Shown: piece after piece, positions 28,874-57,529 of the stretch
Layout: every line of letters starts with the position of its first letter
Numbering within the stretch: position 1 is the stretch's first letter
Notes under the pieces: generated by a model
Database searches by the model: none
Told to the model about the DNA's origin: nothing
The model's input: the letters and a program-made list of their open reading frames with translations, nothing else
Source: Aequorivita sp.
GTDB taxonomy: Bacteria > Bacteroidota > Bacteroidia > Flavobacteriales > Flavobacteriaceae
Assembly: GCA_024637015.1 (NCBI GenBank)
Contig: JAGXGE010000015.1
Coordinates: 186,001 to 250,000 of the forward strand
Direction of reading: 5' to 3'
Length of the DNA stretch: 64,000 bases
Position numbers and translations under genes: made by a program

Positions 28874-31800
28874 ATGAAACACTTATCTATAAGAATAGCC
28901 TGGCATGACAACAAGTGGAACGGAACCATTTGCCAACACCCCTCAAAAAACACATACTGTATTCATTTACCCAGAATAAAGAAAGAGAAGGATGATGTTT
29001 TGGAGAATTCTTATTCAGGAAAATTATGGAATGAACTGCCAAATAGTTTTTTGCCACCATGCAAGGCAGAAGGTGGGTCATTTATGAATACTTTATCATA
29101 TAATCGTATTTTTGATCACCCTTATAAAAAGAACAGCAATGAAAGTGCCCCTCATTATCACCTAAAAGAAACTTCAGTTAAAGTTCCCCCGTTCACTAGT
29201 TTTGCTGTTCCTTTTTGGTGGATGCTAAAAGAGAATCAACCAAAAATAAGGGAAGAATATCCATCAGTTCCTTATGATAAAAATCCGCCTTTTCGCTCTT
29301 CTTGGGTTTATAGTAACACTACTCAAAATGCACTTCTAAATATTTTTTTTGATCCAATTAAAGAAAATAAATCCCTTGCTATTTATTATGTAAAAGGTGC
29401 TAATCCTCTTGATGAAAATGTTAACCGATTAATAGCCGGAGTAGGAACGATACTAAAAAAATCACCAATAATTGAGTACGGGACAAATAATGAAGTTACA
29501 TTTCCTCTTTGGGATAGAATGATCACTCATGGGATTAAACCAAATGACTCAAAAAGTGAAGGAGTATTATTGCCTTATCACGAATATTTAGAACTTCCTG
29601 ATGATTACATTCACAAAACAAAAGATGGCCGGAAAACTAAATATCAATTAATAGATGAAATAAAGCTTACGCTTAACGATATAGGGGGAAGAAAAGAGGT
29701 TATTGATGAATTTGCTTATGGTTCTAAATGGGTAAATAATAATTCTGCATTAATCATACTCTCTAAATTAAGAGCAATAGTGAATCGTATAATCGATCAC
29801 GGAATTGTACAGGGGCATTGGATTGAGAATTTAAAATGGATTGATAGGCAAATTGGTAATGTAAAAGCGGGAATGGGACCATTTCCATCATTTGCTAATG
29901 CAATTACCGCATTAGGCTTTCAGTTTTCTAATGAACTTGAAGAAGATTTAAGAAATGATTATGGTCTAGGTGTTAAGGACAATCCTTGGGAGTTTTGGGA
30001 AGATGTTTTATTTGGAACTATCACTATTAACAGAAAACAGTATAGCAAAGAATTTACACAATTTAAGGATATTTGGTTATCAGAATCACAGGAGCGTTTA
30101 AATTTACTTCAATTATTATCGCGATTTGAATTAACTGTTAGTCAAATTAAAAAATGGTTTGAACTACCCCTCCGTAATAAAATTGCCTTTGGTGTTTCCA
30201 ACAAGGATATTCTGATTAACCCTTACATTATTGCGGAAGAAGACAACGGGGATAAAAACCATTATCCGATTGCAGTAGAAACTATCGACGATGGTTTATT
30301 TGCTGATGTTGCTATTCAAGGAGAATATATTCCAGAAAAACCACAAGTCGTTGATTCACCACTAGATAATAGAAGGGTGCGTGCTTTAATCATTAGCTTA
30401 TTAAAAGAAGCTGCATTAAATGGAGATACTTTAATGTCTATTACTGAGATTACGGAAAAGCTTAATTTACTAAATCTTCAAAGAAGTAGTCATTTTCCAA
30501 CAAGCTACATAAAGGCAAATATGGCTTATTTAATAGAGCAACTTGTAAGTTTAGATTCTGGAAAAATACCATCGCTACAATTAAAACTTTACAACGAAAT
30601 TGAGAAGTTTTTAAGTAAAGTGCTACTTGCGAGGGGTAAAAAGGATTTAGAACCTTTAAATGAGCAATGGGATATATTAGTGAAAAATGTTATTGCAACA
30701 ACTAATATTACTTTTAATCCACTAAATAAGAAACATATTGCTGCACTTGAAGATCAGTCACTCGCATTAAATAAAATTACAAATAAAAAACTAGCTATAT
30801 TACATGGTCCGGCTGGAACGGGTAAAACCACTGTGCTAGGCACACTATTTGGAAATAAAACCCTTAGAAGTGAAGGCATATTACTTTTAGCACCTACAGG
30901 TAAAGCAAGAGTTAAATTAGGTAAGATGGCTAATGCCGAAGCGTTTACAATTGCTCAGTTTTTATCAAAACAAAAGCGCTATGATTGGACTCATATGGAG
31001 CCGTTATTTCATGGGAAAGAAACATATAAAGGAGAAAGAAATGTGATTATTGACGAATGCTCTATGCTTACCGTCAAAGATATATTTGCAATTTTTAAAG
31101 CATTGGACTTAGCTCATGTAAAAAGAATTATTTTAGTTGGAGACCCCTATCAACTTCCACCAATAGGACCAGGAAGACCATTCGCAGATCTCTGTAATTA
31201 TTTAGAAAATTTAGAACCAACAGATACTAATTACAATGCAAAGGATTGCCTTGCTCGATTAAATGAAGTAGTTAGAACCGTTGAAGGTGAAAATTCAGAT
31301 GCACTCACTTTGGCATCTTGGTTTTCAGGGGTAAAGCCATTAAAAAATGCTGATGAGGTTTTTTCTAAATTAGGAGATAATAGCTTATTAAACGATTTAC
31401 AAATAGAATTGTGGAATAATGAAGTAACGTTATATGAGAGACTAAACTCTTCTTTGGATAAAATAATGATTAATGAATTTCAGGAGGGCGGTGAGCTAGG
31501 AATGAACGCAATGTTGGGGATAAAAGGAGATTTAATTGATACCGATAAGATTGAATCTTTTCAAGTGTTGACTCCGGTTAAAGCTCCTTTTTGGGGTAAT
31601 AATAATATAAACAACATTGTACAAAAGAAGTTTAGAATTAATAAAAGAGAAACAATAAACATTGGAGACTATAACATTGGCTTACTTGATAAAGTAATCC
31701 AAACTAAAAACGAATGGAAAACAAGTTATTCAAGTTCCCTGGATTATCAATTATCAAATGGACAATTAGGTTTGGTTAAAGAAATGGCTAAAGGATATGC

Positions 31801-32530
31801 TAATGTTGTTTTTTCAGGTATAGATTCAGACGAATCTTTTGGCTATAGGTCTCAAGGACAAGCAGAAGTTGATGAAACAAATATCGAGTTAGCATATTCC
31901 ATTACGGTACATAAAAGTCAAGGCAGTGATTTTGAGTATGTTTTCTTAATTGTGCCGAAAAAAGGAAGAATCATATCCAGAGAATTAATTTACACAGCCC
32001 TAACAAGAGCAAAAAAGAAATTGATTTTAATTTTAGAAGGTGATAATCCACATTGGTTCATTAATTTATCAAAACCACAATACTCAGAAACGGCTAAAAG
32101 AAATACAAATCTATTTAGCGAAGCAGTAAGAGAAGAAGCATCAACAATACCTTTTGTGGAGGGATTAATTCATAAAACGAAAAAAGATGGATTGCTTGTA
32201 AGAAGTAAATCAGAAGTAATTATAGCTAATGAATTAGTCTATAGAGGGCTAGAATTTGAATATGAAAAAGAGTTTGAGGCTGAAGATGGTCAAAAAAGAA
32301 TACCAGACTTCACTTTTATAGATGCTGCTGGTGAACGAATTTTATTAGAACATTTGGGGATGTTGTCAATACCTAGTTATAAACATGACTGGGAAAAGAA
32401 ATTAAAATTCTATAAAACAAATGGGTTTGAATTAAATGAAAACTTGTTTTTAACAACAGAAAGTGAAAAGGGAGGTATAGATTCCAAAGAAATTGAAAGA
32501 GTAATCGATATTATTCAGGAATTATTATAA
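28874..32530 (+). CDS. SF1 helicase with C-terminal nuclease-like domain, 1218 aa
   Basis: Probable DNA helicase-nuclease. Residues 1-500 form a poorly characterised region that opens LSIRIAWHDNKWNGTICQHPSKNTYC. The motor follows: Walker A GPAGTGKTTVLGTLFG (about 644), Walker B VIIDECSMLTVKDI (about 723), LVGDPYQLPPIGPGRPF, and near the end the UvrD_C_2-type block ITVHKSQGSDFEYVF...YTALTRAKKKLIL. This is RecD/UvrD-like SF1. The C-terminus, VRSKSEVIIANELVYRGLEFEYEKEF...RIPDFTFIDAAGERILLEHLGM, has the shape of a PD-(D/E)XK domain (E, PDF, then E-x-L/H), with the catalytic Lys not obvious. It is separated from the nuclease gene by 139 bases. The context suggests an anti-phage effector; no named system is claimed. 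Confidence 0.75.
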   Translation: MKHLSIRIAWHDNKWNGTICQHPSKNTYCIHLPRIKKEKDDVLENSYSGKLWNELPNSFLPPCKAEGGSFMNTLSYNRIFDHPYKKNSNESAPHYHLKETSVKVPPFTSFAVPFWWMLKENQPKIREEYPSVPYDKNPPFRSSWVYSNTTQNALLNIFFDPIKENKSLAIYYVKGANPLDENVNRLIAGVGTILKKSPIIEYGTNNEVTFPLWDRMITHGIKPNDSKSEGVLLPYHEYLELPDDYIHKTKDGRKTKYQLIDEIKLTLNDIGGRKEVIDEFAYGSKWVNNNSALIILSKLRAIVNRIIDHGIVQGHWIENLKWIDRQIGNVKAGMGPFPSFANAITALGFQFSNELEEDLRNDYGLGVKDNPWEFWEDVLFGTITINRKQYSKEFTQFKDIWLSESQERLNLLQLLSRFELTVSQIKKWFELPLRNKIAFGVSNKDILINPYIIAEEDNGDKNHYPIAVETIDDGLFADVAIQGEYIPEKPQVVDSPLDNRRVRALIISLLKEAALNGDTLMSITEITEKLNLLNLQRSSHFPTSYIKANMAYLIEQLVSLDSGKIPSLQLKLYNEIEKFLSKVLLARGKKDLEPLNEQWDILVKNVIATTNITFNPLNKKHIAALEDQSLALNKITNKKLAILHGPAGTGKTTVLGTLFGNKTLRSEGILLLAPTGKARVKLGKMANAEAFTIAQFLSKQKRYDWTHMEPLFHGKETYKGERNVIIDECSMLTVKDIFAIFKALDLAHVKRIILVGDPYQLPPIGPGRPFADLCNYLENLEPTDTNYNAKDCLARLNEVVRTVEGENSDALTLASWFSGVKPLKNADEVFSKLGDNSLLNDLQIELWNNEVTLYERLNSSLDKIMINEFQEGGELGMNAMLGIKGDLIDTDKIESFQVLTPVKAPFWGNNNINNIVQKKFRINKRETINIGDYNIGLLDKVIQTKNEWKTSYSSSLDYQLSNGQLGLVKEMAKGYANVVFSGIDSDESFGYRSQGQAEVDETNIELAYSITVHKSQGSDFEYVFLIVPKKGRIISRELIYTALTRAKKKLILILEGDNPHWFINLSKPQYSETAKRNTNLFSEAVREEASTIPFVEGLIHKTKKDGLLVRSKSEVIIANELVYRGLEFEYEKEFEAEDGQKRIPDFTFIDAAGERILLEHLGMLSIPSYKHDWEKKLKFYKTNGFELNENLFLTTESEKGGIDSKEIERVIDIIQELL

Positions 32531-33270: not shown

Positions 33271-33296
33271 AGTCAGATTTGCTAAAAATTTAATCG

Positions 33297-33410
33297 GGGA
33301 GAATACCAAATATAAAGATTTTTTTTTGGTTCTATAAAATCAGACGTTTCGCATTACAAATGCAACAAAAAATAGACACGCTTTTCAAAAGTGCCAAGGG
33401 AATACCAATT
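33297..33410. repeat. Imperfect direct repeat, copy A (about 110 bp)
   Basis: Shares GGGAGAATACCAAATATAA, CATTACAAATGCAAC and AGACACGCTTTT-AAAAG, in that order and spacing, with 35751-35865. Copy A lies just upstream of the XRE gene; copy B lies beyond the far end of the four-gene cassette. Same orientation, about 2.45 kb apart. Confidence 0.7.
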
Positions 33411-33493: not shown

Positions 33494-33563
33494 TTAATGT
33501 TAGCAAAACCCAACATTAAGCTCCTTTTTAAGCTATAATGTTGGGAAATACCAACATTAAGCT
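33494..33563. repeat. Cluster of AACATTAAGCT motifs in alternating orientation
   Basis: Four copies within 70 bases: TTAATGTT, CCAACATTAAGCT, AGCTATAATGTTGG and CCAACATTAAGCT. Copies two and three form a stem (CCCAACATTAAGCT / AAGCTATAATGTTGGG). Possible iteron-like or regulatory cluster just after the cassette. Confidence 0.55.
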
Positions 33564-33590
33564 AAAAAAACCCTCCAAAAATTTGAAGGG
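33562..33590 (-). terminator. Terminator after cassette 1
   Basis: On the minus strand CCCTTCAAA-TT-TTTGGAGGG (one mismatch) is followed by TTTTTTTAGC. It closes the four-gene minus-strand cassette, 24 bases beyond the last stop codon. Confidence 0.75.
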
Positions 33591-33613
33591 TCTTTATGCT
33601 ACACCAAAATAAA

Positions 33614-33811
33614 TTAGTAACGTCTTTTAAGTTGCTTGCATATCCATTTAAGAAGCACGGTAACCAAAAAACTGGTCACGGTACCAAAAGTAGCCATACA
33701 AAGTGTGACCATGATATCTTCTATAGGCAGGTTGGGCAGTATGCCAAACACAGTTCCTCCAAAAATACTGACGCGATAATTATCCATAGCCATCCGGTTA
33801 ACGATCAGCAT
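33614..33811 (-). CDS. Small membrane protein, cassette 1 gene 4
   Basis: A 65-aa protein whose counterpart in cassette 2 is the 72-aa gene at 61696-61914. Both read MLI...., a Gly-rich segment, LPN, then a hydrophobic span (IMVTLCMATFGTVTSFLVTVLLKW here) and a basic tail (KWICKQLKRRY). One or two membrane spans with positive charges at the C-terminus would suit a holin-like or other small pore former, but this is inference. Its ATG overlaps the end of the preceding gene by 14 bases, as in the other cassette. Confidence 0.7.
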   Translation of the reverse strand: MLIVNRMAMDNYRVSIFGGTVFGILPNLPIEDIMVTLCMATFGTVTSFLVTVLLKWICKQLKRRY

Positions 33812-34088
33812 CCAGCAGCGGATTGCTATTTAATTGAATCACCCTGCCGTCTATATTTGGAGTATCATCATCATCGTTTTCGTTCAGATCTTTTATTACC
33901 ATTTGGCTCACTACAGTAGCCACAGTCCCCGCCACCATAAGATACCCGCCAATGGTAATGACAACAGTGGGCATCAAAACGGGCACGGTTACTATAGCTC
34001 CTCCAATTGCCGTTAACCCAAACCCGAGATTCCGCAACTTTTTGAAAAACTTTGGTGTAGGTTCTTTCAGTCGATTATATAAATTCAT
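33798..34088 (-). CDS. Small two-span membrane protein, cassette 1 gene 3
   Basis: A 96-aa protein similar by eye to the 81-aa product at 61461-61706: both begin MN-L--R-K-PTPKFF---RNLG-GL---GG, continue with a second hydrophobic stretch VAGTVA--VSQ, and end in a charged tail. Two predicted membrane segments (about residues 25-45 and 48-65). The length and topology fit a class II holin-type protein, though sequence alone does not establish this. It lies 81 bases after the DUF5675 gene and overlaps gene 4 by 14 bases. Confidence 0.75.
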   Translation of the reverse strand: MNLYNRLKEPTPKFFKKLRNLGFGLTAIGGAIVTVPVLMPTVVITIGGYLMVAGTVATVVSQMVIKDLNENDDDDTPNIDGRVIQLNSNPLLDADR

Positions 34089-34169
34089 AACCTCAAATTT
34101 TAATTAATACTAGTCCGATAAATATTCCCACCAACCACCACCAATCGCCAACCATCAATTGAGAACCCT

Positions 34170-34580
34170 TCACCTTCCCGAAAACTCCGAACTAACTGTC
34201 AAAAACACAAGTTCGCCGGGCTCTCGAAAAGCTTCAATACGCAAAATAAGAAGGTCAAGTGCTTTTCTTGATCCTAATCCCTTGCCAATTCCCGTAAGTT
34301 GTGAAACCGGAGCAATGCAACTACCTAGTTCACTCGCGGCATCACTAGCAGGATGAATTAATATCCCACTTTGGTCTTGCACCCCTTTCACTAATAAATG
34401 ATGTTTAAACTGCAGTGAATAAAAAGGCTGCAGCTTATAAATACCGTCAGGAATACACGAAATATTGCGCTTGTTCGCACGCCAGGGTAGTTCAATGCTG
34501 AAGCACAAAAATTGACTTTTATGAAACAGCGAACCATTGGTCCCCGCTCTGAAATGTGTTCTATGTAGAAATAAATCCAT
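34170..34580 (-). CDS. DUF5675-family protein, cassette 1 gene 2
   Basis: A 136-aa protein of the DUF5675 type: ELPWRANKRNISCIPDGIY, then GILIHPASDAASELGSCIAPVSQLTGIG, then an S-x-x-AL--L segment. The IH...G-x-CI arrangement recalls the HG...S-x-GCI active site of YkuD-type L,D-transpeptidases, so a peptidoglycan-directed activity is a reasonable guess but unproven. No signal peptide, so export would need help, as phage endolysins get from holins; two small membrane proteins follow directly. The cassette 2 homologue (61061-61498) has Gly where this protein has the Cys. Confidence 0.8.
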   Translation of the reverse strand: MDLFLHRTHFRAGTNGSLFHKSQFLCFSIELPWRANKRNISCIPDGIYKLQPFYSLQFKHHLLVKGVQDQSGILIHPASDAASELGSCIAPVSQLTGIGKGLGSRKALDLLILRIEAFREPGELVFLTVSSEFSGR

Positions 34581-34594
34581 TGCTCCGTTTTAGG

Positions 34595-35350
34595 TTAAAC
34601 TTGGTCTACGTCCACAACACCAAGGGCATTGAATGATCCATTTCGCAACGGATACATTTCGCCGTTCACTTCTTGAAAAAAGCTTACACCAAGTACCTGC
34701 ATTACAGGCAAAATTCCTCCTCCAGTAATAGTTGGACTAAGAGTAAGGGCTGGTTGCGGTGTTGCATCCCAGAGGATAATAGGGGAAAATGCGTGATCCT
34801 CCTCAAATTTTCTACCTGCAAAGTCAAGTGCACAAACACCCGCTACCAACTGTACGTGCGTCGTTCCCTTTGGTGCATCAATGGTTTCGTTCGGCACAAA
34901 GGCATCAACATCCACGTCAAATACCCCAGTGGCTCTGTCAAAATTTGGCGTATAGCCACTAAAGAAAACCGTATTTAGCTTCCCTTTTTCGTTAAAGTCG
35001 AACTCATTCAACAAGCTCATATCGCCATCTTGAACCGTACGTTTACCACGATTGTTCAAAGGATCACTTTTTACAATACTCATCAAGACCTTTACCAGTC
35101 TTGATGTTACTCGGTAGTCGCTTGCCTGGCGCAATAAAATACGCTCTGCCTTTCTGATCAATTGACCTCCTTTTCCGGCAGTTCCAAATTCCATCCCGTT
35201 CTCTCGGGTACGCTTAAAAGCAGGATCGTTTAAAATGCGGTTCTTTTCAATACCGCCCTTCTCACGGGCCAAATACCCGTCTCTTGTTTTGTAAAAGGTA
35301 TAATCTCCAATTGTACCTTTTAGCTTTACAATTCCTTTTTGTTTTGCCAT
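34595..35350 (-). CDS. Conserved 251-aa protein, cassette 1 gene 1
   Basis: Function unknown. The start is set at the ATG at 35350 (MAKQKGIVKLKGTIGD), because the cassette 2 homologue begins identically and has exactly the same length, 251 aa. The N-terminal third is basic and Gly-rich (FYKTRDGYLAREKGG, TRENGMEFGTAGKGGQLIRKA). The middle is helical. The C-terminal half is beta-rich and ends FFQEVNGEMYPLRNGSFNALGVVDV. No signal peptide or enzyme motif. The high conservation of both ends between copies and the linkage to DUF5675 and holin-like genes suggest a structural or effector protein of a phage-derived unit (inference). Confidence 0.75.
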   Translation of the reverse strand: MAKQKGIVKLKGTIGDYTFYKTRDGYLAREKGGIEKNRILNDPAFKRTRENGMEFGTAGKGGQLIRKAERILLRQASDYRVTSRLVKVLMSIVKSDPLNNRGKRTVQDGDMSLLNEFDFNEKGKLNTVFFSGYTPNFDRATGVFDVDVDAFVPNETIDAPKGTTHVQLVAGVCALDFAGRKFEEDHAFSPIILWDATPQPALTLSPTITGGGILPVMQVLGVSFFQEVNGEMYPLRNGSFNALGVVDVDQV

Positions 35351-35471: not shown

Positions 35472-35750
35472 TATTCCTTCATATAATTGCACAATAGCTA
35501 CCTTCTTTTCCAATTAATGGGACTTAAGGTCACAGTTGCATGAGGCTACTAAGAATGAATTAAGGATCATACTGTAGTGACTTGGAAAATGATAGAATTG
35601 AAGTTTATGTGGTAATCTTAAATGAGGCCAAGAATTGGGGACGGTCTATACGTGGTTGGGAAGATTAATTTTATTTTTACACATTACGGAAAACCGTACC
35701 TGCCTGCATTTTAAACGCCCTCCTACGCATAAAGCTTCGGTGGCCAAAGG

Positions 35751-35865
35751 GAGAGAATACCAAATATAATTAATTTGTCGGTTTCAAAGGTTCGTGAAGA
35801 ACATTACAAATGCAACGATAAAGAGACACGCTTTTAAAAAGCGCGCCAGAGGGTAATAAATAACA
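35751..35865. repeat. Imperfect direct repeat, copy B
   Basis: GAGAGAATACCAAATATAA, ACATTACAAATGCAAC and AGAGACACGCTTTTAAAAAG match copy A at 33297-33410 in order and orientation. It brackets cassette 1 together with copy A. Confidence 0.7.
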
Positions 35866-36441: not shown

Positions 36442-38304
36442 TTAGTTGAAATTTAGCAAGGATTCGTTCAGTTTTTTTAAAATATTTTCAAGAGCAAATT
36501 TTGTTAATTCTGATGCTTTTTCTTTTTCATGATTTATTTTTTTTATCCATTTTTTGACGAATTGTTTTTCCTGCATAATATCAGGAGAAATTTCCTCATT
36601 ATATCTGTTTTCAATCTCAGTAGCAAAATCAATAATTTCTGAATTTTTTAAATTTATAAATACCTCCCAAAATTCGTCAAAATTAAATAATGAAAATATT
36701 GGTGTATATCGATACTGAGATTGAAGTGGATATGTTTGATTTAAAAACTCCTTAAAATCTGTTTTAAATAAATGAAAAAGGTTTGAAATTTCAGTTTTAA
36801 AATTATCATTTTTTAGCTTTTGATTTAAATTAAAACAATACTCAATTATTTTCTTTACTTCATTAGTGGTCTTTATATAAACACCTAAATTTTCCGTATA
36901 ATTATATTGAGGTATTCCCTTGTCAATTCCTTTTATGAATCTATGACTTAATTTTTCGATGTCAAATCCCAAGACATTATTCATCCTTGTTGCTAAAACA
37001 AATAAATATGGATACCTGCCAAGAGCGAAACTTCCTTTATCAACGAATTTCAACATTCGTAAGGTCAATTCTTTATATTTTTTAAATTCCATGTCAATGA
37101 AATCTCGTTGGGATAATTTTCCAACAATATCTTCTGCTTCCGAAAATTTCTCCTCTTTAATATTGAATTTCGTCTTTAATTCTTTCAAAAGTTCTTTTGG
37201 GAAAAATTGCGATTCACCAATTATAAAATCAAAAATTGATTTAAAAAAATAATTTGAAAATTGATTATCTCCTAAATATTTTGTTTTGTAAATATCAATA
37301 TATGTTTGTTCTTTTTTAACCGAATTAGAAGTGGAATTTTTAGCTAGAATGGCTTCTATTAAAAATCTACTACCACTATACAAATCGGAAATGTCCTTGT
37401 GGCTATGGGAATTAATTTTTCCCATTTTGTATTCCACTGAAATGGGTAAGGCGAAACTTAATACAGTTTTGAAAACAATATCCTTTACAGATAAAAGTAA
37501 TTTTTCTTCCTCTAATTCCTTTACAAGTCCCTTATATATGATTTTAAAATTCTCTAAAAAGAAAACTAAATTTCTAATATTCCCTTTATTGAGTAATATA
37601 ATTTCTAAAATAAAATTTTTGTTCTCTGTCAAATATTCAAAATATTCTAAATCGTGATCATTATTATATTTATTATTGATAATATGGTTAAAGATTGCTT
37701 CTACATCAGTTTTAAAATTCATAGACACTCCAATAACCTTTTCACGCAACATCGAATATGATTGATTATTCGTATTTTTTTCCTCTTTAAATAAAATTTC
37801 TTCGTTAGCAATTATGATAACTTTTGTATTTGAGTTTTCTACTAAGTTATTAATGAAACCGAACAATTCCGTGCTTTTTAAATCTTCGCTCTTTCTGTCA
37901 ATGTCATCAAAACATAACAACAACTTGTTATAGTTTAAAATATCTTTTGGAGAAGTATTTATATTGCTTATATACTCGTCTATATCAATGCCAGAATATA
38001 CTTTAAGCAAACTTTTGCCAATATCTGAGGCTATCTTGATCTTTTTTCCTTTTAGAATAGGGTACAATTCTAAGAAAATCATTTTTTGAATTTCCTCCAC
38101 CGTTTTAATACCAAATAGGGAAATTAAAATAGGCGTAAACTTGGAATCTTTTTCACTTGATACTTCAATTCCCTTGACTATTGGAAATAATTCATGTTTG
38201 AAATAATATGTTTTTCCTATTCCATATTCACCTCTAATTATAACTGCATAGTTGGTTTCTAATTGGAGATATTGAATAATTCGGTCTGTTAAAACTTCAT
38301 TCAT
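36442..38304 (-). CDS. KAP-type P-loop NTPase
   Basis: A 620-aa STAND-like ATPase. Walker A is RGEYGIGKTYYF (residues 24-35) and Walker B is KLLLCFDDIDRKSED (127-141), followed by a sensor-like KVIIIANEEIL. This ordering and the DDIDR box are typical of KAP-family NTPases. Unlike many KAP proteins it has no membrane segments inserted in the P-loop domain. The remaining ~400 residues are helical and charged. It is the last gene of a minus-strand operon: its ATG lies 9 bases after the 1103-aa gene. KAP NTPases recur in anti-phage systems as energy-consuming sensors; here the partner pair is unfamiliar. Confidence 0.82.
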   Translation of the reverse strand: MNEVLTDRIIQYLQLETNYAVIIRGEYGIGKTYYFKHELFPIVKGIEVSSEKDSKFTPILISLFGIKTVEEIQKMIFLELYPILKGKKIKIASDIGKSLLKVYSGIDIDEYISNINTSPKDILNYNKLLLCFDDIDRKSEDLKSTELFGFINNLVENSNTKVIIIANEEILFKEEKNTNNQSYSMLREKVIGVSMNFKTDVEAIFNHIINNKYNNDHDLEYFEYLTENKNFILEIILLNKGNIRNLVFFLENFKIIYKGLVKELEEEKLLLSVKDIVFKTVLSFALPISVEYKMGKINSHSHKDISDLYSGSRFLIEAILAKNSTSNSVKKEQTYIDIYKTKYLGDNQFSNYFFKSIFDFIIGESQFFPKELLKELKTKFNIKEEKFSEAEDIVGKLSQRDFIDMEFKKYKELTLRMLKFVDKGSFALGRYPYLFVLATRMNNVLGFDIEKLSHRFIKGIDKGIPQYNYTENLGVYIKTTNEVKKIIEYCFNLNQKLKNDNFKTEISNLFHLFKTDFKEFLNQTYPLQSQYRYTPIFSLFNFDEFWEVFINLKNSEIIDFATEIENRYNEEISPDIMQEKQFVKKWIKKINHEKEKASELTKFALENILKKLNESLLNFN

Positions 38305-38313
38305 TTGCTTAAT

Positions 38314-41300
38314 TTATTTATTATATTTTTCATATAAATCCCTTAAAAAGTACTGTCCATTCTTTGCAAACTCATTACAAATTTTATTAGATTTTTCAGA
38401 TAATAATAAATCATTCTGTAAATAAAGAAATTCTACAAATTCAAGTATCTCTTTTTGCATTATGGATGCATAATAAAAATCTTTAAAAAATGAATCAATA
38501 AATATTTCACAAGCATAAATGCAATTTTGTCTTACGTTCCCAATTATTTTTAGTCGATTAAGATTTTTAATTAGTTCGTCCAGATCCCTTCCATGACGTG
38601 CGTACGAAGAACTTTTAAGGATTAATTGAGTTGATTCTTCATTAAGTTGATCTATATATTTTATAAGATAAATTAAGGAAGGAAAGTCTTTGGATTCTAT
38701 TCCTTCCATCGTATCCAGTAATTTTAAAATGTATCGCCATAATTTTAAAATTTTATCTTTAAATTTTATTTTCTCCTCAGTAATAAGTCCATCTCTATAA
38801 CTAGAAAACTTGAACGAAAGAGAATGTACAATACTCTTAATACTATTAATCTCTTTTTTGTTGAGCAAAAGGGTTAATAATTCACCCTCATTTAAGTTTT
38901 CATAATTATAAATATAAAAGATAAGAATATGTGTTTCTAAAGGAGTATTACCCATACTTGAATCGACGATTTGCCAATTAGAAAGAATATGCTTTTTATA
39001 AATGTCCTTTAAAGTATTATATTCAAAAATAGAAGTAGGGTAATTTAATAAATGCCCTCCAAAAAAGGACATGATAGATTGATCGTTTTTTTGAGGTATT
39101 GATTTTAATTGCTTTTTTGTCCATTCAAAATCTAGGAAGTAAAAGTTGTTTATGTGCCAACCCAAAAGAACTAAAACCTCTTGAATATTATTGTTTATTA
39201 GTTTATCAAAAGCACTCTTTTCTTCTAAAGACCAAATTGGAGTTTTATCTTCCAATAATTGTTTTTTTAACCTCCCTTTTCTTAAAGAGTAATCAAGTAA
39301 ACATCCTATAATTACTCCTGTTCTCGAGTTTACAACTTGCATTGCTGAACCTAATTTGCCAACGTGTTTGTCATCTAACTTATTAGATATGTATTTTTCT
39401 AATAATAAAAATATATTTTTCTCAGCCATAGGTAAAAATTCTTCGGGAAATGCTATATCATCATTTCTCATTCCTTGGCTCATTAACCTACAAAAACTAA
39501 TTATTGTAGATGAGTAATCATAATCATATGGATCGTTTTTAAACTGTAACTTATCTGTAGAAAATTCGCTTTGGGATATATATTGGTAAATGAAATCTAA
39601 AGTATTTTTCCAATCAATTAGAATACCTGTTTTATGTGCATCTGATAGAGAATAAAATATTGTTGAAATATGTTTATAAGGTACTTTTAAAAATTGTAAA
39701 TGATTTAAATAAAAAATTTCAGGTTTTTCTTTAATAACGATACCTAAATTATCTGCCAATCCGTCAACGCTTGGATTTCTGAAACTCCTTTCGGGGTCAA
39801 ACTCCTTTAAATAACTTATTAACTCGTCTATTGGAAGACTCTTAATTTTTTTTGAACTAATTGGAGACGTACTTCCAAAAATGATACCTGACTCAATCTT
39901 GGGTCTAACTTGTTTTTTTGTTAGTTTTAATTTCTTTGATAATTGATTATAGGGCTTTTTAAAAAAGATATTTTCACTCAAAGCCGAATACCATAGTAGT
40001 CTAAAATTATCAAAATATTCTTTCTTATTATAATAATGTTCATCTTGCGATCCACGCTCTATAATATCTTTAAAAATCATAGCCTCGTCTTCATTTAATT
40101 TTTCTGCAATCTCTTCTATCAGGAAGTATAGGTCATCACCCCAATAATTGCTCGAAAATAATTTTCGCTCATCTTCATTTTCAATTAATTGAAAAAATAT
40201 TTCCTTAGTATTCTCCCAAGTTTTAGCGAATAGAAATAAGGATAGCTTTATAAAATGCCTGTGAGAATATTTTTGACTTAAAAAACTATGAATTACTTCT
40301 TGAATCCTTTCAGGTGATTCATCAGAAATTTTTACACATACATTTTTCAAAAATGTCGTGTATATACTTTTGACAGAATATGAGTGACTTTGAAGTTCGT
40401 TTGGGTAGAATATACTATTGATTATTCCATCAAATTCGGATTTAAGAGAAATCAATAATTTGTTGGCAATATGGAATATAACCTCATTTGAACAATAATT
40501 GGCAATTCCAGAATAAAAAGTATCGTTTTCGCACGCTTCTCTTAATCTATACGCCCGAATTATTGGATAGTGATTTCCTGTTTCATAAGTTGAAGTATCT
40601 CGAAATCTTTGGTCATTTGATACTTCAAAGACTAATTTTATTATCTTTTCTATTCGGGACTTATTATGCTTGGAAACTTCTTCATTTTCAAAATAAGTAT
40701 TAATAAAATTGAAAATTTCATTACTGGTAAGAACATTTTGAGGTTCAATTGTAAAATAAATAGGAAGCTGATTAATAATAATATCATTTACATATTTCTT
40801 TGGTAGATTGGTTAGAATTACCAAAAGAGTATACCAAATTCGATAATTTTTTATCGGCTGAATATTAATAGAATAAGTGCCTATATCTTCAACAATTTCA
40901 ACTAATAGTATGCTTAATCCTTCTTCAATTTTTCCTTTATTAATTTCTATGGCTAAGAACTCTAAGTACTCAGATTGATTCCAATAAGATTCATCTTTAA
41001 TTGTTTCTGGCGAAAAAAAGCCGTTTTCATATAGTGCTATAAACCAAGAATCTTTAATTAGATTTTTAAAAAAGTAATGCTCCTTTTGATTGTCTAAAAG
41101 AATATTCTTTAAAGTAAAAAGAATTTCTTCTGAAGGATTTTCATATTTTATTATTCTTTCTAATTGTTTAATTTGCTTTATAAAGTCCCCTAACAGTTTT
41201 AAAAGAATATCTTCATATCTTGACCATAGACTCGATATTTCTTCTGCATTTCTGGAAGTTTTGTATCCACCTCTCCTATGTGTATATTCAACAAACTTAG

Positions 41301-41625
41301 TCGCTACATCTATATATTCTCTTGCGAATGGTTCATCAACAGGTAAGTCCAATGCAGTCAAAATGGAGGCAATATGTCCTTTCCTCTTTTTTAAGTCGGA
41401 GTCTAATGACAGTGTTTTTTCAAGTTTCTTTTTTTCATCATCTGGGGCTAAAAAGTCTCGAAGACTTCCGTCAATTTCTCTTGCTGAATGAGCAATCATA
41501 TAAGACCTTGATGGGATAGATTCAGTCTCAATAAGCATTAACCCACTTTTATAAAAACCTGAGAGCTCCTCGCCAATATTTTTAAGTCCCTGATAAATTG
41601 CCTTTTGCTTTGCTAACATCTCCAT
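38314..41625 (-). CDS. Large helical protein of unknown function, 1103 aa
   Basis: Not assigned. The N-terminal ~160 residues carry a recognisable conserved-looking block: PSRSYMIAHSAREIDGSLRDFL, GHIASILTALDLPVDEPFAREYIDVATKFVEYTHRRGGYKTSRNAEEISSLWSRYEDILLKLL. The rest is a long run of helices rich in Lys, Glu, Leu and Phe, with no P-loop, membrane span or nuclease motif seen. It could be a scaffold or sensor of HEAT/TPR-like helical repeats. It lies 18 bases after the 4-TM gene and 9 bases before the KAP NTPase, which argues for one three-component complex. The His-Arg-Arg in the N-terminal block is the only feature hinting at an active site. Confidence 0.75.
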   Translation of the reverse strand: MEMLAKQKAIYQGLKNIGEELSGFYKSGLMLIETESIPSRSYMIAHSAREIDGSLRDFLAPDDEKKKLEKTLSLDSDLKKRKGHIASILTALDLPVDEPFAREYIDVATKFVEYTHRRGGYKTSRNAEEISSLWSRYEDILLKLLGDFIKQIKQLERIIKYENPSEEILFTLKNILLDNQKEHYFFKNLIKDSWFIALYENGFFSPETIKDESYWNQSEYLEFLAIEINKGKIEEGLSILLVEIVEDIGTYSINIQPIKNYRIWYTLLVILTNLPKKYVNDIIINQLPIYFTIEPQNVLTSNEIFNFINTYFENEEVSKHNKSRIEKIIKLVFEVSNDQRFRDTSTYETGNHYPIIRAYRLREACENDTFYSGIANYCSNEVIFHIANKLLISLKSEFDGIINSIFYPNELQSHSYSVKSIYTTFLKNVCVKISDESPERIQEVIHSFLSQKYSHRHFIKLSLFLFAKTWENTKEIFFQLIENEDERKLFSSNYWGDDLYFLIEEIAEKLNEDEAMIFKDIIERGSQDEHYYNKKEYFDNFRLLWYSALSENIFFKKPYNQLSKKLKLTKKQVRPKIESGIIFGSTSPISSKKIKSLPIDELISYLKEFDPERSFRNPSVDGLADNLGIVIKEKPEIFYLNHLQFLKVPYKHISTIFYSLSDAHKTGILIDWKNTLDFIYQYISQSEFSTDKLQFKNDPYDYDYSSTIISFCRLMSQGMRNDDIAFPEEFLPMAEKNIFLLLEKYISNKLDDKHVGKLGSAMQVVNSRTGVIIGCLLDYSLRKGRLKKQLLEDKTPIWSLEEKSAFDKLINNNIQEVLVLLGWHINNFYFLDFEWTKKQLKSIPQKNDQSIMSFFGGHLLNYPTSIFEYNTLKDIYKKHILSNWQIVDSSMGNTPLETHILIFYIYNYENLNEGELLTLLLNKKEINSIKSIVHSLSFKFSSYRDGLITEEKIKFKDKILKLWRYILKLLDTMEGIESKDFPSLIYLIKYIDQLNEESTQLILKSSSYARHGRDLDELIKNLNRLKIIGNVRQNCIYACEIFIDSFFKDFYYASIMQKEILEFVEFLYLQNDLLLSEKSNKICNEFAKNGQYFLRDLYEKYNK

Positions 41626-42787: not shown

Positions 42788-43642
42788 TTGAAAGAAATAA
42801 ATCAAATAATACATTTAACCGAATCAATAGATATTTTGAAGTCTATTATCAAAAACGGATTTTACACATCTTATGCAAAAGAAACTTTCAATGGGAAAAA
42901 TATTTTGATTCCTATGATAAGCTTCTCAAATATTCTTTTTCGTGATATTGGAAAGAATGAGGTTGTCGATTATGGTAAATACGGAATTGTATTTGACAGA
43001 GACACAATCATTAAAAAATTTGATTTAAACCCAGTTTTTTATGTGAAAAATGAAAGTGATTTAGAAACAACTTTTAAAACAAATTTTGAAAATTCAATAA
43101 TACCACAGACCTTAAAAGTCGCTAAAGATTTTTATACTGATTGTAATTGTGAAAAATTTACTGACCATATCAACATCAATCCAATAAGTAACGAAGTTAA
43201 GGACTTGTTGAATACATTAGATAAAAACGTGAATGACGACTTTATAAATTCATTAAAAACAATTTTTGAAAATTACTTTGTTAATTCACTCAAACAAATG
43301 TTGGTTTTAAAACCATATACTGTTGAGAACAAATCTAGTGAAACTAAAATAGCTTACAACGAACGTGAATGGAGAAAAAGTTATTTTGAATTGAACTTTA
43401 TTTCTGAGTTTACACCAAAAGGGGAAATAAATAAGGAATTCCAAAAGTGGATAAATACGTCTAAACCACACTACACAGAAAAATACGTACAGAAATTTGA
43501 TCTAAGTGACGTAAAATTAATATATGTTGAAAATGAAAACGAAGTAAAAGACCTAAATAATTTTATAAAATTAAATTTCTTAAATCAGTCAATTCATATC
43601 AAAACATTGTCTGAATGTATAGAAATTGAAAATGCAATCTAA
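42788..43642 (+). CDS. AbiGi-like putative abortive-infection protein
   Basis: A 284-aa protein starting at TTG (42788). The opening HLTESIDILKSIIKNGFYTSYAKETF...ILIPMISFSNILFRDIG...YGKYGIVFDRDTIIKKFDLNPVFYVKNESDLE matches the pattern of the AbiGi family (putative abortive phage resistance, antitoxin side). No AbiGii-like partner lies next to it, so either it acts alone or it belongs with the divergent KAP operon. The C-terminus, KTLSECIEIENAI, is complete. Confidence in the family is moderate and based on memory of the pattern. Confidence 0.65.
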   Translation: MKEINQIIHLTESIDILKSIIKNGFYTSYAKETFNGKNILIPMISFSNILFRDIGKNEVVDYGKYGIVFDRDTIIKKFDLNPVFYVKNESDLETTFKTNFENSIIPQTLKVAKDFYTDCNCEKFTDHININPISNEVKDLLNTLDKNVNDDFINSLKTIFENYFVNSLKQMLVLKPYTVENKSSETKIAYNEREWRKSYFELNFISEFTPKGEINKEFQKWINTSKPHYTEKYVQKFDLSDVKLIYVENENEVKDLNNFIKLNFLNQSIHIKTLSECIEIENAI

Positions 43643-43926: not shown

Positions 43927-43955
43927 TGGCGGAGAAAGAGGGATTTGAACCTTCT
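43927..43955 (-). tRNA. 3' fragment of a tRNA gene (probable attachment-site scar)
   Basis: On the minus strand the sequence reads AAGGTTCAAATCCCTCTTTCTCCGCCA: T-arm, acceptor 3' strand, discriminator and CCA, most like tRNA-Ser. Beyond the T-arm towards 44 kb there is no variable arm, anticodon arm or 5' acceptor strand, so the gene is partial. Integrases of island-type elements target exactly this 3' end and leave such a copy. No integrase gene is in the window. Confidence 0.75.
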
Positions 43956-45112: not shown

Positions 45113-45260
45113 TAGTATTGAGTATTGAGTAGTTAGTATTGAGTGTTTTCAACTCCTAATGAGGTCTCTCCCGAAGCCTCGGGAGCGCTCGACCAGACAT
45201 TCATGTCTTAATGCTTAAAGCTTACAGCTTACAGCCTAAAGCCTAAAGCATAAAGCTTTA
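45113..45260. repeat. Low-complexity word array 4 (AGTATTG, GCTTACA, GCCTAAA words)
   Basis: AGTATTGAGTATTGAGTAGTTAGTATTGAG at the left and GCTTAAAGCTTACAGCTTACAGCCTAAAGCCTAAAGCATAAAGC at 45212-45257. The GCCTAAA word is that of array 1. Between them is a CCCGAAGCCTCGGG stem. Confidence 0.7.
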
Positions 45261-45301
45261 AAAAAAAAGACCCGCTCCACGTTTTCGACGACCGTTGGAG
45301 C
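45258..45301 (-). terminator. Possible minus-strand terminator or leader hairpin
   Basis: GCTCCAACG and CGTGGAGC arms with GGGTC before a run of nine T (minus-strand sense). In the plus direction the same hairpin would lie in the leader of the SusC gene. The 5-nt gap before the T-run makes the terminator reading uncertain. Confidence 0.35.
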
Positions 45302-45349: not shown

Positions 45350-48349
45350 ATGAAAAATAATTACAGGTATAGGCTTGCACTTGCAAGTATTTTTGCCCTC
45401 TTCTTCACTTACAACTCCCCACTTTTTTCTCAGAACCTTCCACTAAAAACCATTAGTGGAATCATTACCGATGCCGAAGGTCCGCTCAGCGGAGTCAATG
45501 TATTGGTAAAAAACACCGCCCGTGGGAGCATCAGCGATCTGGAAGGCAGGTATGCCCTAACCGCCACTGCCAAGGATACACTTGTATTCACCTATTTGGG
45601 GTATAAGTCCCAAGAAGTGGTTGTGGGCAGTAGCAGTATTATGAATGTTGTTATGCAGGTTGATGCCACTGCCTTGGATCAAGTGGTTATTAATGCGGGG
45701 TATTATAAGGTTACTGAAAAAGAAAAAACAGGAAGTATCTCCCGTATTACAGCTGAAGATATTGAGGAACAAATAGTAATGAATCCTGTTGCTGCACTAC
45801 AAGGGAGGGTTTCAGGTTTACATATTATCCAAAACTCGGGGATTGCAGGAAGTGGCTTTATGGTCCAATTGCGTGGCAAGAACAGTTTAACGGCTGGTAA
45901 CCAACCATTATATGTTATTGATGGCATTCCTTTTAGTTCCGATGGAATGGGCACCCGTAACGTTTCCGGTACTATCCTGCCCGGCGCAGACTATAGCCCT
46001 TTTAGTTTTTTAAGTCCTTCCGATATTGAGAGTATTGAGGTGCTGAAGGATGCCGATGCCACGGCCATTTATGGCTCCCGTGGTGCCAATGGGGTTATTT
46101 TGATAACCACCAAAAGGGAGCAGAGGGGAAGCACTACATATTCCATTACCGCAAAGAGTAGCCTCGGGCAAACCGCAAAAAAACAAAAACTACTGAATAC
46201 AGAACAATATCTGCAGCTACGGGAGCAGGCTTTTGGCAATGATGGCTTCACTGAGTATCCTCCTTATGCGTACGATATTAACGGCACCTGGGACCGAAAC
46301 CGTTATTCCGATTGGCAGGAGGAACTATTGGGTGGGACGGCCTATATACGGGAATATCAGGCCTCGGTGGCCGGGGGCAGCAATTCCACTTCCTTTTTTT
46401 TCAGTGGTGGTTACCATAATCAGACTACAGTATTTCCCACCGACGACCGTTACCAACGCGCCAATGGCCTTGCCAAGCTTTCCCACAGTTTGCCCAACGA
46501 TAGCTTTAAGATAACCCTGTCCACAGCCTATGCCCATGAAAACAATCAGCTCCCGAGTTCCGATTTAAGCTATCAGGCTTTGATCTTACCCCCAAATGCA
46601 CCCCAATTATACAATGAGGACGAAACCCTCAATTGGGAGGACGGAACCTTTAACAATCCGTTGGCTTCCCTTCAAGGTGAGTTGTTGTCCAAACGAAACA
46701 GCCTGCTTGTAAATGGTTTATTGGAAATCAAGCTGCTGAACAATCTCACGCTACGCACCACCTTGGGGTATCAGGATACCAAACTATCTGAATATCGTAC
46801 AAGTCCCCACACCATTTATCCGCCACAGTATGGTTTTGACAGTAGTTTTTCTGGCATCTATACTAACGACGGAACCCGAAATTCGTGGATGGTGGAACCT
46901 CAATTGAATTATAACTATAGCCTTGGGGACCACAAGCTGGATGTATTGTTGGGCTATTCCGCACAAAACGAAACATCAAGCGTCTTTTCCCAATACGCAG
47001 AAGGTTTTGCCACGAACTCCCAAATTAGGAACCTAGCGGCGGCCAATTATATCAGGGTGATGAACGATGCCGAACAGGTATATAAGTATCAGGCGCTATT
47101 CGGAAGGGTAAACTATACTTTTATGGATCGGTATATCATCAACCTAACGGGGAGGAGGGATGGCTCCAGTCGCTTTGGCCCCAACAACCGTTTTGCCAAT
47201 TTCGGGGCGGTGGGTGGCGCCTGGTTGTTTTCAGAAGAAGCGGGAGTTGAGAATGCCCTACCCTTTCTTTCTCATGGAAAGCTTCGCGGTAGTTATGGCA
47301 GTACTGGCAACGACCAGATTGGCGACTACCGCTATTTAAACTCCTATGGCAGCACTGGTATATCTTTTAATGGAACTATTGGGCTCTACCCCACCGCCCT
47401 CTACAACCCCAATTTTGGGTGGGAGGAAAACCGAAAGGCTGAGCTGGCGCTAGAACTGGGCTTGTTTAATAACAGGATTACAACCAACATCAACTATTAC
47501 AGAAACCGTTCCTCCAACCAACTAGTAGAAATTCCCCTTCCAGGCACCACAGGCTTTCCTAGTATTTTGGGCAACCTCGGCGCCCTAGTGGAAAACAGGG
47601 GCTGGGAGTTTGAGCTGAATACCGTAAATATCAATCGAGGTAACTGGAAATGGAACACCTCCTTCAACTTTAGCCTCCCACGAAACGAACTACTTGAGTT
47701 CCCCAATCTGGCAAGTAGCACCTATGCCAACAGTTACGTAATTGGGGAGCCAATTACCATTGTAAGGGTGTTGCATTTTACGGGAGTTGATTCCGAAACG
47801 GGCGTCTATACATTTGAGGACTATAATGGCGACGGGCAGATAAGCGCCCCCGAGGATAGGAAGGCCATTATAGATACCGCTCCCGAATGGTACGGCGGGT
47901 TGTCTAATACTTTTGCCTATGAAAATCTGGAGCTGGATATCTTCTTCCAGTTTAGCAAGCAAATGGCACAGAATATAAACCGTTGGGGTATCACCCCCGG
48001 CGCCATGGCTAACCAGCCTGTTGAAGTATTAGATGCCTGGACTGCTCCTGGCGACCAAACAGATACCCAAGGCTATACCGCAGGCGGAAGCTATGAGCGC
48101 TCAGTAGCCGCCTATAATTTGGGGCAAAGTGATGCCGCTTTCAGTGATGCCACCTATTTACGGCTAAAGAATATCTCGCTTTCCTATAACATTCCAAATT
48201 TTCTCCACAGCACATCAAATGCTAAGGTATTTATCCAGGGACAAAACCTATACACCCTTACGGAATATAAAGGGCAAGACCCTGAACAGACGCAGGGTTT
48301 TATTCCTGCCCTACGATGGTTGGGTGCAGGACTTACATTAACCTTTTAA
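45350..48349 (+). CDS. SusC/RagA-family TonB-linked outer-membrane transporter
   Basis: A 999-aa outer-membrane barrel that imports oligomers with energy from TonB. It has a signal peptide, a carboxypeptidase-regulatory-like domain at about residues 35-110 (TISGIITDAEGPLSGVNVLVKNTARGSISDLEGRY), then the plug domain (ALQGRVSGLHIIQNSG...LYVIDGIPF...IESIEVLKDADATAIYGSRGANGVILITTK). The barrel runs to the terminal aromatic strand LGAGLTLTF. It is first in a three-gene operon with SusD and a prolyl oligopeptidase-type peptidase, so the imported ligand is likely peptide rather than glycan. Confidence 0.95.
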   Translation: MKNNYRYRLALASIFALFFTYNSPLFSQNLPLKTISGIITDAEGPLSGVNVLVKNTARGSISDLEGRYALTATAKDTLVFTYLGYKSQEVVVGSSSIMNVVMQVDATALDQVVINAGYYKVTEKEKTGSISRITAEDIEEQIVMNPVAALQGRVSGLHIIQNSGIAGSGFMVQLRGKNSLTAGNQPLYVIDGIPFSSDGMGTRNVSGTILPGADYSPFSFLSPSDIESIEVLKDADATAIYGSRGANGVILITTKREQRGSTTYSITAKSSLGQTAKKQKLLNTEQYLQLREQAFGNDGFTEYPPYAYDINGTWDRNRYSDWQEELLGGTAYIREYQASVAGGSNSTSFFFSGGYHNQTTVFPTDDRYQRANGLAKLSHSLPNDSFKITLSTAYAHENNQLPSSDLSYQALILPPNAPQLYNEDETLNWEDGTFNNPLASLQGELLSKRNSLLVNGLLEIKLLNNLTLRTTLGYQDTKLSEYRTSPHTIYPPQYGFDSSFSGIYTNDGTRNSWMVEPQLNYNYSLGDHKLDVLLGYSAQNETSSVFSQYAEGFATNSQIRNLAAANYIRVMNDAEQVYKYQALFGRVNYTFMDRYIINLTGRRDGSSRFGPNNRFANFGAVGGAWLFSEEAGVENALPFLSHGKLRGSYGSTGNDQIGDYRYLNSYGSTGISFNGTIGLYPTALYNPNFGWEENRKAELALELGLFNNRITTNINYYRNRSSNQLVEIPLPGTTGFPSILGNLGALVENRGWEFELNTVNINRGNWKWNTSFNFSLPRNELLEFPNLASSTYANSYVIGEPITIVRVLHFTGVDSETGVYTFEDYNGDGQISAPEDRKAIIDTAPEWYGGLSNTFAYENLELDIFFQFSKQMAQNINRWGITPGAMANQPVEVLDAWTAPGDQTDTQGYTAGGSYERSVAAYNLGQSDAAFSDATYLRLKNISLSYNIPNFLHSTSNAKVFIQGQNLYTLTEYKGQDPEQTQGFIPALRWLGAGLTLTF

Positions 48350-48359
48350 TGCTTAAACT

Positions 48360-52372: not shown

Positions 52373-52398
52373 TATAAATTAATAATTACAAATTGAAA

Positions 52399-52427
52399 GA
52401 TGCCCCAAATGGGGCATCTTTTTTTTT
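52399..52427 (+). terminator. Rho-independent terminator after SusCD-peptidase operon
   Basis: GATGCCCC-AAAT-GGGGCATC, a perfect 8-bp stem, followed by nine T. Confidence 0.92.
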
Positions 52428-52434
52428 AAGGCAA

Positions 52435-52698
52435 TCAAGGTTGCCAGTTCATAAATAAAGGTAAGGAACAACTCGTTGGTCCATTCTTACCAAAAACAAT
52501 TCTACCTGTGTTGTCTGTACAAGTTGCGGTACTTGACAGATCACATTTCCCGTGGGGAACGCAGACACCGTTTTGGTAAATGTAACCCTGCACAAGGGCC
52601 ATTTCTTCCTTACCATCATCCTGTGAGGCAAAAGCTGCCGCAATAGCAAGCATAAAGGCCGCCACAGGTAACAAAAACTTGAATTTTAAATTTCTCAT
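52435..52698 (-). CDS. DUF6520-like small secreted protein, 87 aa
   Basis: A signal peptide (LKFKFLLPVAAFMLAIAAAFASQ) is followed by a ~60-residue Cys-containing domain: VQGYIYQNGVCVPHGKCDLSSTATCTDNTGRIVFGKNGPTSC. The G-Y-I-x(n)-C-x-P-H-G-x-C pattern fits the DUF6520 family of Bacteroidota, which commonly sits beside MauE-like genes. It is 86 bases upstream of the MauE-like gene in map order but both are on the minus strand, with this gene downstream. Function unknown. Confidence 0.8.
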   Translation of the reverse strand: MRNLKFKFLLPVAAFMLAIAAAFASQDDGKEEMALVQGYIYQNGVCVPHGKCDLSSTATCTDNTGRIVFGKNGPTSCSLPLFMNWQP

Positions 52699-52784
52699 GA
52701 TTTCTAAAATTTAAATTTATAAATATGACCTACTCTCTTCTACAGGTTTTCGGTCTCATCCCTGTTCTTGCAAGAAAAAATCTT

Positions 52785-54275: not shown

Positions 54276-54730
54276 ATCATAATTTCAATTACATAAAATT
54301 AATGCACCTCCCTAAGAAGGAAGTAGGGTTGAAGGATACAATGAGTAAGGGTAAAACCTTACTATGAAAAGTAGTAAGTGCTAATTGAAATTTCAAAGAG
54401 TAATTAAGAACTATATAAATTGCTGGCGCGTTCGTCTCGCCCATGGCTGCAAAGCTGTATCCTCCAATAGAAGGTGTATTATATCCGAGCCAAACCGTCA
54501 TTGCAAGCACAGCGCGACAAATCGAAGATTCAACGGAGTTAACCTCATGACCCAAACCGTCATTGCGAGCGCAGCGCGGCAATCCCATGAGGCTACTTGC
54601 CATCATGATTAAAACTACACCACAACAGATTGCTTCAGTCGTAAACTCCTTCGCAATGACGTTAATCAATCATGACCCAAACCGTCATTGCGAGCGCAGC
54701 GCGGGAAATTAGTATCGAGGCCACCGCCCT
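54276..54730. repeat. REP-like repeat cluster, non-coding
   Basis: Three direct copies of CCAAACCGTCATTGCGAGCG CAGCGCGG-type sequence (54490-54520, 54551-54585, 54678-54705) and one inverted copy GATTGCTTCAGTCGTAAACTCCTTCGCAATGACG (54628-54661). The ORFs called here (126, 75 and 73 aa) are translations of these repeats, with telltale VIASAARQS peptides. They are not genes. Confidence 0.8.
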
Positions 54731-55410: not shown

Positions 55411-55413
55411 TTT

Positions 55414-57444: not shown

Positions 57445-57529
57445 AATCAATACATAGGGGGAGTTTACAAATGTAAGAAAAGCCTTTCTATTACAAAAGG
57501 CTTCTCTTAAAATCAGGCTGTTATGGATT

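Follow-up and report, generated by a model that had tools for sequence, protein, structure and literature searches.

The 64-kb stretch of Aequorivita sp. DNA analyzed here (the window) contains two complete copies of a cassette of four genes, g1-g2-g3-g4, where g2 encodes a DUF5675 protein; cassette A lies on the minus strand and cassette B on the plus strand (Table 1). Our data strongly support the assignment of this cassette to one end of integrative elements that insert at tRNA-Ser genes, where it is the module closest to the attachment (att) site. Judged by how regularly its four genes stay together, the cassette is a real module. The elements are found in marine and freshwater Bacteroidota, Flavobacteriaceae and their relatives, and they carry defence and efflux cargo.

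The boundary of the elements is marked by a breakpoint. Locus L103 is 94-97% identical to loci L100 and L102 until 773 bp upstream of gene 1, where it diverges; beyond this point L100 and L102 remain alike and run through an integrase. At the L103 breakpoint, immediately after a hairpin terminator, we found GCGGAGAAAGAGGGATT, which is complementary to the 3′ end of a tRNA. Whole elements could be resolved in complete genomes, two in tandem in G048 (~31.9 and 34.6 kb) and one in G138 (~27.5 kb). The first G048 element consists of tRNA-Ser (579435-579520), an integrase, cargo, RteC, a replication-like protein, an AAA protein, more cargo, DUF6943, g4 to g1, a helix-turn-helix (HTH) gene and the core (611379-611392), and the second follows the same plan up to the core at 645983-645996. 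A direct repeat of the tRNA-Ser 3′ core is present at the integrase and cassette ends in each case (twice in G048, once in G138). Read from the cassette side, the order is the 17-bp tRNA 3′ core, a small divergent HTH gene at a distance of 207-257 bp, g1-g2-g3-g4, cargo and defence genes, DUF6943, AAA, the replication-like protein, RteC, the integrase and the next core or tRNA. The integrase belongs to Pfam Phage_int_SAM_5/Phage_integrase, and an HTH_17 gene is AlpA-like (PF12728, expectation value (E) 6e-8). Integrase, a DnaC-like loader and DUF5675 were common to all three resolved elements, in a set of 77 open reading frames (ORFs) of at least 95 amino acids from which ORFs crossing the borders of the fetched stretches were cut or missed.

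A search for the core in nine further genomes yielded 24 exact sites, compared to none for a reversed control pattern. Six of these genomes have one cluster of cores in the same orientation, with neighbours 12.4-63.1 kb apart; the sites are less regular in G548 and G549, and scattered over contigs in G545. Among 20 cores examined, ten have the HTH gene, g1, g2, g3 and g4 on their right, the HTH gene at the distance given above, a count that is partly selected because the nine genomes were chosen mostly for a core already seen at a locus. The tRNA and integrase findings are free of this selection: eight of the 20 cores are tRNA-Ser 3′ ends and seven of the eight have an integrase directly to the left, the eighth (L230) being a tRNA-Ser without integrase. 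Cores L228 and L231 fit neither class. Of the eight genomes in which we inspected the cores closely, six have both types of end, and an integrase or its fragments lie to the left of five of the ten cassette ends, i.e. these elements are in tandem.

A broader collection comprises 124 gene-1 ORFs at 120 loci; it counts at least one locus twice, L031 and L128 being a single contig, and four of its loci carry a pair of gene-1 ORFs. When up to 3 mismatches were allowed, a core was present within 1.4 kb upstream in 24/124 loci, all with the HTH gene, compared to 1/124 in shuffled sequence. That the core is seen at just 24 loci implies that many others use different att sites or have lost theirs. A G048 copy indeed lies beside tRNA-Tyr and L036 beside tRNA-Arg, and a second core type is present at L080, L089 and L109. 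At L221, a second HTH-gene 1 pair, with gene 1 alone and in the opposite orientation, lies directly to the left of another element's core. A 93-aa ORF at L100:14653-14931, with the same gene in L102, is hydrophobic in its later part and has a weak Pfam match to RuvX; its start resembles the RuvC-I part of Cas9.

An empty site and a candidate excised form bear on this picture. The tRNA-Ser of the window genome (C30:20906-20991) has no element. In genome G167, the same chromosomal flank leads into the core, behind which lie an HTH gene and a gene 1 on its own (L138); the similarity between the two genomes stops at the core. A circular 25,320-bp record from Marivirga (NZ_CP129969.1) carries, in order, AAA pieces, the replication-like protein, HTH_17, the integrase, a terminator, a tRNA-like sequence, the HTH gene and g1-g2-g3-g4. 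The integrase and HTH gene are adjacent in this record, as predicted for an excised circle; its integrase, g1 and g2 frames are broken.

To describe the conservation of the cassette, we used the cassette B gene 1 as query against named genomes and obtained 79 loci, mostly from Flavobacteriaceae. The four genes are present in order in 71 of the 75 loci having at least 1 kb downstream (the exceptions are L033, which lacks g2, L047, L083 and L096), and a small divergent HTH-like gene is found within 1.5 kb of gene 1 in 62 of the 71 loci having at least 1.5 kb upstream. Because the same genes recur in the same order at so many loci, the four-gene unit is far beyond chance. The wider set of 124 ORFs divides into 61 with the HTH gene and all four genes, 20 with all four genes without HTH, 12 with HTH and g1 only, 24 lacking HTH and g2-g4 alike, and 7 with some other combination. 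Most often, only a few nucleotides separate g1 from g2. Relatives of gene 1 occur in 25 of 28 genomes of the window's genus (up to 9 per genome), in 19 of 148 genomes drawn from the order and in 32 of 395 from the phylum. The ratio of non-synonymous to synonymous substitution (dN/dS) was 0.012-0.154 for gene 1 in all of 20 pairs but one, which was saturated, and 0.031-0.348 for g2-g4, four saturated pairs apart. Gene 1 is therefore under strong purifying selection. A first-pass annotation of the window had proposed a self-contained module under selection. The module and the selection are both upheld by these data, the four genes being usually adjacent elsewhere; the term self-contained is not supported for a cassette that usually has an HTH partner and forms the att end of integrative elements of ~12-63 kb.

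The two copies in the window lack the divergent HTH gene. Their gene 1 proteins are 53% identical over 251 columns without a gap, the weakest stretch being residues ~183-215, and DUF5675 was recognized in both g2 proteins (Pfam E 2.2e-23 and 2.4e-28). The first-pass annotation was accurate in describing a second complete copy on the opposite strand, 251 aa for both gene 1 proteins, an overlap of g3 and g4 kept in both copies, a putative terminator after cassette A and the DUF5675 identity of gene 2. Its tight packing applies to most junctions, the exception being the g2-g3 junction of cassette A, where 81 nt lie between the genes. The window genome has a third relative of gene 1, a lone and distant paralogue (C6:18414-19145, 34% identical; L003, L136) without HTH and without g2-g4, and no third DUF5675 was found elsewhere in this genome. 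Lone gene-1 copies related to this paralogue in congeneric species show purifying selection.

Table 1. Features of the 64-kb window (window coordinates)
Feature	Position	Strand	Remarks
Cassette A gene 1 (g1)	34595-35350	-	251 aa; ATG at 35350
Cassette A g2, DUF5675	34170-34580	-	136 aa
Cassette A g3, small membrane protein	33798-34088	-	96 aa
Cassette A g4, small holin-like membrane protein	33614-33811	-	65 aa; 14-nt overlap with g3
Terminator-like hairpin and T-run 3′ of cassette A	~33563-33592	-	read from sequence
Cassette B gene 1 (g1)	60303-61058	+	251 aa
Cassette B g2, DUF5675	61061-61498	+	145 aa
Cassette B g3, small membrane protein	61461-61706	+	81 aa
Cassette B g4, holin-like	61696-61914	+	72 aa; 11-nt overlap with g3
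RteC family regulator beside cassette B	58771-59601	+	PF09357, E 8.9e-62; element backbone gene
Candidate defence gene PDC-S68	28874-32530	+	left of cassette A; cargo-like
Candidate defence gene PDC-S49	36442-38304	-	between cassette A and stranded core
Candidate Dsr1-like defence gene	38314-41625	-	between cassette A and stranded core
Gene without assigned identity	41644-42729	-	between cassette A and stranded core
Candidate AbiGi-like defence gene	42788-43642	+	between cassette A and stranded core

The most economical reading of the window is that both copies are stranded remnants of elements in a defence-rich region. The window contains one exact copy of the core GCGGAGAAAGAGGGATT (43929-43945, plus strand), directly after a hairpin terminator and not oriented towards cassette A, and we found no integrase and no tRNA in it. 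From 45350 to 59601 the window reads SusC/SusD, S9 peptidase, MauE, response regulator, tetratricopeptide-repeat histidine kinase, LytTR and RteC; by eye, RteC adjoins the same cluster in the element regions of G156 and G048b. In G160, a relative of cassette A adjoins the SusC cluster and the defence block is absent. Direct repeats flank cassette A (33296-33394 and 35750-35844, ~2450 bp apart; 43 nt at 88% and 27 nt at 85%). Transposition of the cassette via these repeats was rejected, since other loci of the genus (L123, L120) have similar sequence where there is no cassette nearby. Short AAAGCTTACAGCC-like repeats are present at 45209-45273 and 7736-7966 of the window, and the same motif occurs in other genomes of the genus.

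The elements are non-phage and apparently non-conjugative. Among 50,697 phage records, none contained gene 1. The 2.9 million viral contigs of IMG/VR, scanned once with the protein and once with a 50-row alignment, returned no relative, and a single match was obtained among 72,556 plasmids. The three resolved elements have 66 PHROGs in common, and no structural phage family was seen among the 25 of these that were listed. A relaxase search limited to PF03432 was negative in four whole cassette-bearing genomes, and no type IV secretion genes were seen in the three resolved elements by eye, no model-based search having been made. We rejected a prophage fragment on the absence of gene 1 from phage records and viral contigs, and the first-pass concern that gene-1 homologues might lie in prophages was settled in favour of the module. 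The related idea that the cassette is the degraded lysis region of a prophage draws on the spread of DUF5675 among phages (177 of the 50,697 records) and on its holin-like neighbours; the distribution of gene 1 and the lack of structural families among the PHROGs listed both argue against it, and we consider it very improbable.

What, then, might the cassette do? The first clue comes from g2. Its AlphaFold2 model (predicted local distance difference test score, pLDDT, 93) had Pgp2 as its best VIA match (Z 10.2, root-mean-square deviation 2.6, 111 of 136 residues aligned), with further matches to Tlde1a (Z 9.6), Csd6 (Z 9.3), YkuD (Z 9.1) and also DpaA. Of the 50 matches listed by VIA, almost all appear, from their titles or general background, to be L,D-transpeptidase-fold enzymes. 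Foldseek alone gave weak matches (best E 0.012, none below 1e-3). On the strength of the model, DUF5675 adopts an L,D-transpeptidase/carboxypeptidase fold. A His-x11-Cys motif, the putative catalytic pair, is present in 75 of 81 scored g2 copies. It is kept in 59/60 HTH-linked copies vs. 16/21 without HTH, in a tally where related copies are not independent and some loci 'without HTH' end at contig borders; six g2 ORFs were left out, L106 and L126 (His and Cys kept by eye), L082 and L110 (fragments), and L154 and L156 (distant). The cassette A protein keeps both residues, His76 and Cys88. g2 is leaderless, having no hydrophobic leader. One of the phage relatives of DUF5675 is annotated as an L,D-carboxypeptidase/transpeptidase, and in Salinibacter phage M31CC-1 the relative is followed by one gene and then by two membrane-protein genes.

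The g3 and g4 proteins are small and hydrophobic with predicted hydrophobic segments; g3 of cassette A has a cationic N-terminus followed by a hydrophobic segment at residues 28-46. Both may act as holins. Together, g2-g4 resemble an endolysin plus holins, and the likeness to a lysis module drawn in the first-pass annotation gains a structural basis from the predicted fold of DUF5675; lysis itself would be the corresponding function. On balance, we favour the idea that the cassette is an element end module that, upon induction, provides a lysis-like exit with gene 1 as companion. The exit or lysis role is moderately supported. We propose that induction would probably be switched by RteC, by the HTH_17/AlpA-like gene and by the divergent HTH gene that adjoins gene 1. 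The element would excise at the 17-bp core and replicate via its own initiator-like protein and the DnaC-like loader, and g1-g4 would be expressed after excision and replication. As holins, g3 and g4 would let the leaderless g2 reach and cut peptidoglycan; the donor cell would leak or lyse, and the element would leave. Gene 1 would be its exit companion, a coat, packaging or DNA-protecting protein, which is a guess.

The gene 1 protein of cassette A has a basic helical N-terminal part and an acidic β-sandwich C-terminal part. Residues 1-110 have a net charge of +13 in cassette A and +11 to +13 overall, and the remainder is acidic. No Pfam, PHROG or NCBIfam match was obtained up to E 1. When the full-length model (pLDDT 82, with the first 11 residues poor) was compared by Foldseek to PDB and viral models, no match reached an E under 1e-3, its best VIA match (Z 6.0) was a generic sandwich, and a comparison to the sequences of solved structures revealed nothing convincing. 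DUF6266 (PF19781), a Bacteroidota family of similar size with, by eye, a similar N-terminal motif, gained no support as a family for gene 1 from profile-profile comparison (hhalign probability 0.1-0.4%). A tie to extracellular injection systems was considered as two tail-tube genes adjoin the solo HTH-g1 unit L138 in G167 (Pfam gp19, E 5.6e-47); it was rejected, since this neighbourhood matches the empty tRNA-Ser surroundings of the window genome and the genes are therefore chromosomal flank, not a partner.

The basic N-terminal part of gene 1 would fit DNA contact, which raises the possibility that the HTH protein acts with gene 1 in element maintenance or in site-specific recombination at the adjacent att site, with g2-g4 as passengers involved in wall remodelling or in excluding incoming elements. 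HTH and g1 persist without g2-g4 in L138, L083 and L096, L138 lying beside a core, and gene 1 is the most constrained gene of the cassette. However, gene 1 also exists as a lone chromosomal gene (the 24 ORFs with neither HTH nor g2-g4), its C-terminal half is a generic β-sandwich and its close packing with g2 argues for joint use. We therefore view this explanation as quite unlikely.

Defence genes are prominent both in the window and in the elements. A defence-rich stretch extends over window positions 19349-43642 and includes, besides the candidates of Table 1, genes that by eye are restriction-modification-like. Among the 25 families listed of 220, the PADLOC matches in the three resolved elements include Septu (PtuA, PtuB) and AbiEii. 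More than 1 kb is inserted between g4 and DUF6943 in 7 of 40 loci with DUF6943, and genes inserted there match PDC-S46 (L085), a ThsB-like Toll/interleukin-1 receptor (TIR) protein (L059) and a UG19 reverse transcriptase (L088). L036, which has no DUF6943 nearby, has an Avs4 match beside g4, and L039 encodes a protein with the same N-terminus. The company of such genes is one reason to ask if the cassette is itself an abortive-infection unit, with gene 1 as the phage sensor and g2-g4 as the means of opening the cell; its place among defence genes would then reflect defence instead of transfer. Cassette A lies among the PADLOC candidates PDC-S68, PDC-S49, Dsr1-like and AbiGi-like, the g4-DUF6943 gap houses defence genes in several elements, stranded copies are under purifying selection, and a peptidoglycan-cutting enzyme with holin-like proteins would suit a suicide effector. 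Defence cargo varies, however, whereas the cassette has a fixed place, a fixed distance from the core and a dedicated HTH gene, as expected of backbone, and the g2 dyad is lost more often without HTH (5/21 vs. 1/60, related copies not being independent). An abortive-infection role is, in our view, unlikely.

Several observations weigh against the lysis-like exit that we favour. Stranded copies remain under purifying selection, suggesting some use outside the mobile element. L083 and L096 lack g2-g4 although HTH, g1 and DUF6943 are kept, and G048b lacks g2; the lysis genes would thus not be obligatory while g1 is, and the L083 and L096 loci point to a role of g1 that is independent of g2-g4. 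The dyad is lost in g2 of cassette B, where Cys is replaced by Gly (GGIAPV). A single hydrophobic segment stands out clearly in each of g3 and g4 (in g3 of cassette B there are two, side by side); their membrane topology is putative. The matches to holin PHROGs are weak (E 0.0055, for g4 of cassette B with phrog_2359, and 0.063), and no phage relatives of g3 and g4 were found by tblastn. Finally, a review describes phage satellites as having no lysis mechanism of their own (PMC11389934).

We file the elements as a variant of tRNA-integrating cargo elements, set apart from satellites. They resemble phage satellites (P4-like, PICI, PLE and PICMI) in their site-specific integration by a tyrosine recombinase, an HTH_17/AlpA-like regulator, their own replication genes, a hotspot for defence genes and the lack of a detected structural gene set. 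They differ in measuring ~12-63 kb between cores, in having no known helper and in their own apparent lysis module, which satellites are said to lack (PMC11389934). CTnDOT and NBU, integrative and conjugative or mobilizable elements of Bacteroidota, have an RteC-family regulator and a tyrosine integrase; the elements described here have an RteC-family regulator and a related integrase as well, but none of the four cassette-bearing genomes has a PF03432 relaxase. Phage holin-endolysin modules share the arrangement of a leaderless enzyme with a peptidoglycan-active fold beside two small membrane proteins, but here the predicted fold is that of an L,D-transpeptidase/carboxypeptidase, a 251-aa gene leads and the module is not in a phage. 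Tycheposons and VEIMEs also target tRNA genes, use a tyrosine recombinase and carry cargo, according to passages of two papers (PMC10872708, PMC10803314); those passages do not mention the g1-g4/HTH/DUF6943/RteC backbone, and the hosts here are Flavobacteriaceae and relatives. We found no description of these elements, and no match for DUF6943, in an open-licence collection of papers, where DUF5675 gave two matches.

The elements can stack in tandem at one tRNA gene, together with Septu-, AbiE-, TIR-, Avs4- and reverse-transcriptase-like defence genes. How islands without a recognised relaxase leave their host is a question that the fixed att-side module, with its predicted peptidoglycan-cutting fold and holin-like proteins, makes directly testable. 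Being conserved and without a name, gene 1 stands out as a candidate for the transfer component that is missing. It is even conceivable, if improbable, that these non-phage, non-conjugative islands represent a helper-free, lysis-based gene-transfer agent, in which gene 1 would serve as coat or DNA companion and by which anti-phage systems would spread through the Bacteroidota.

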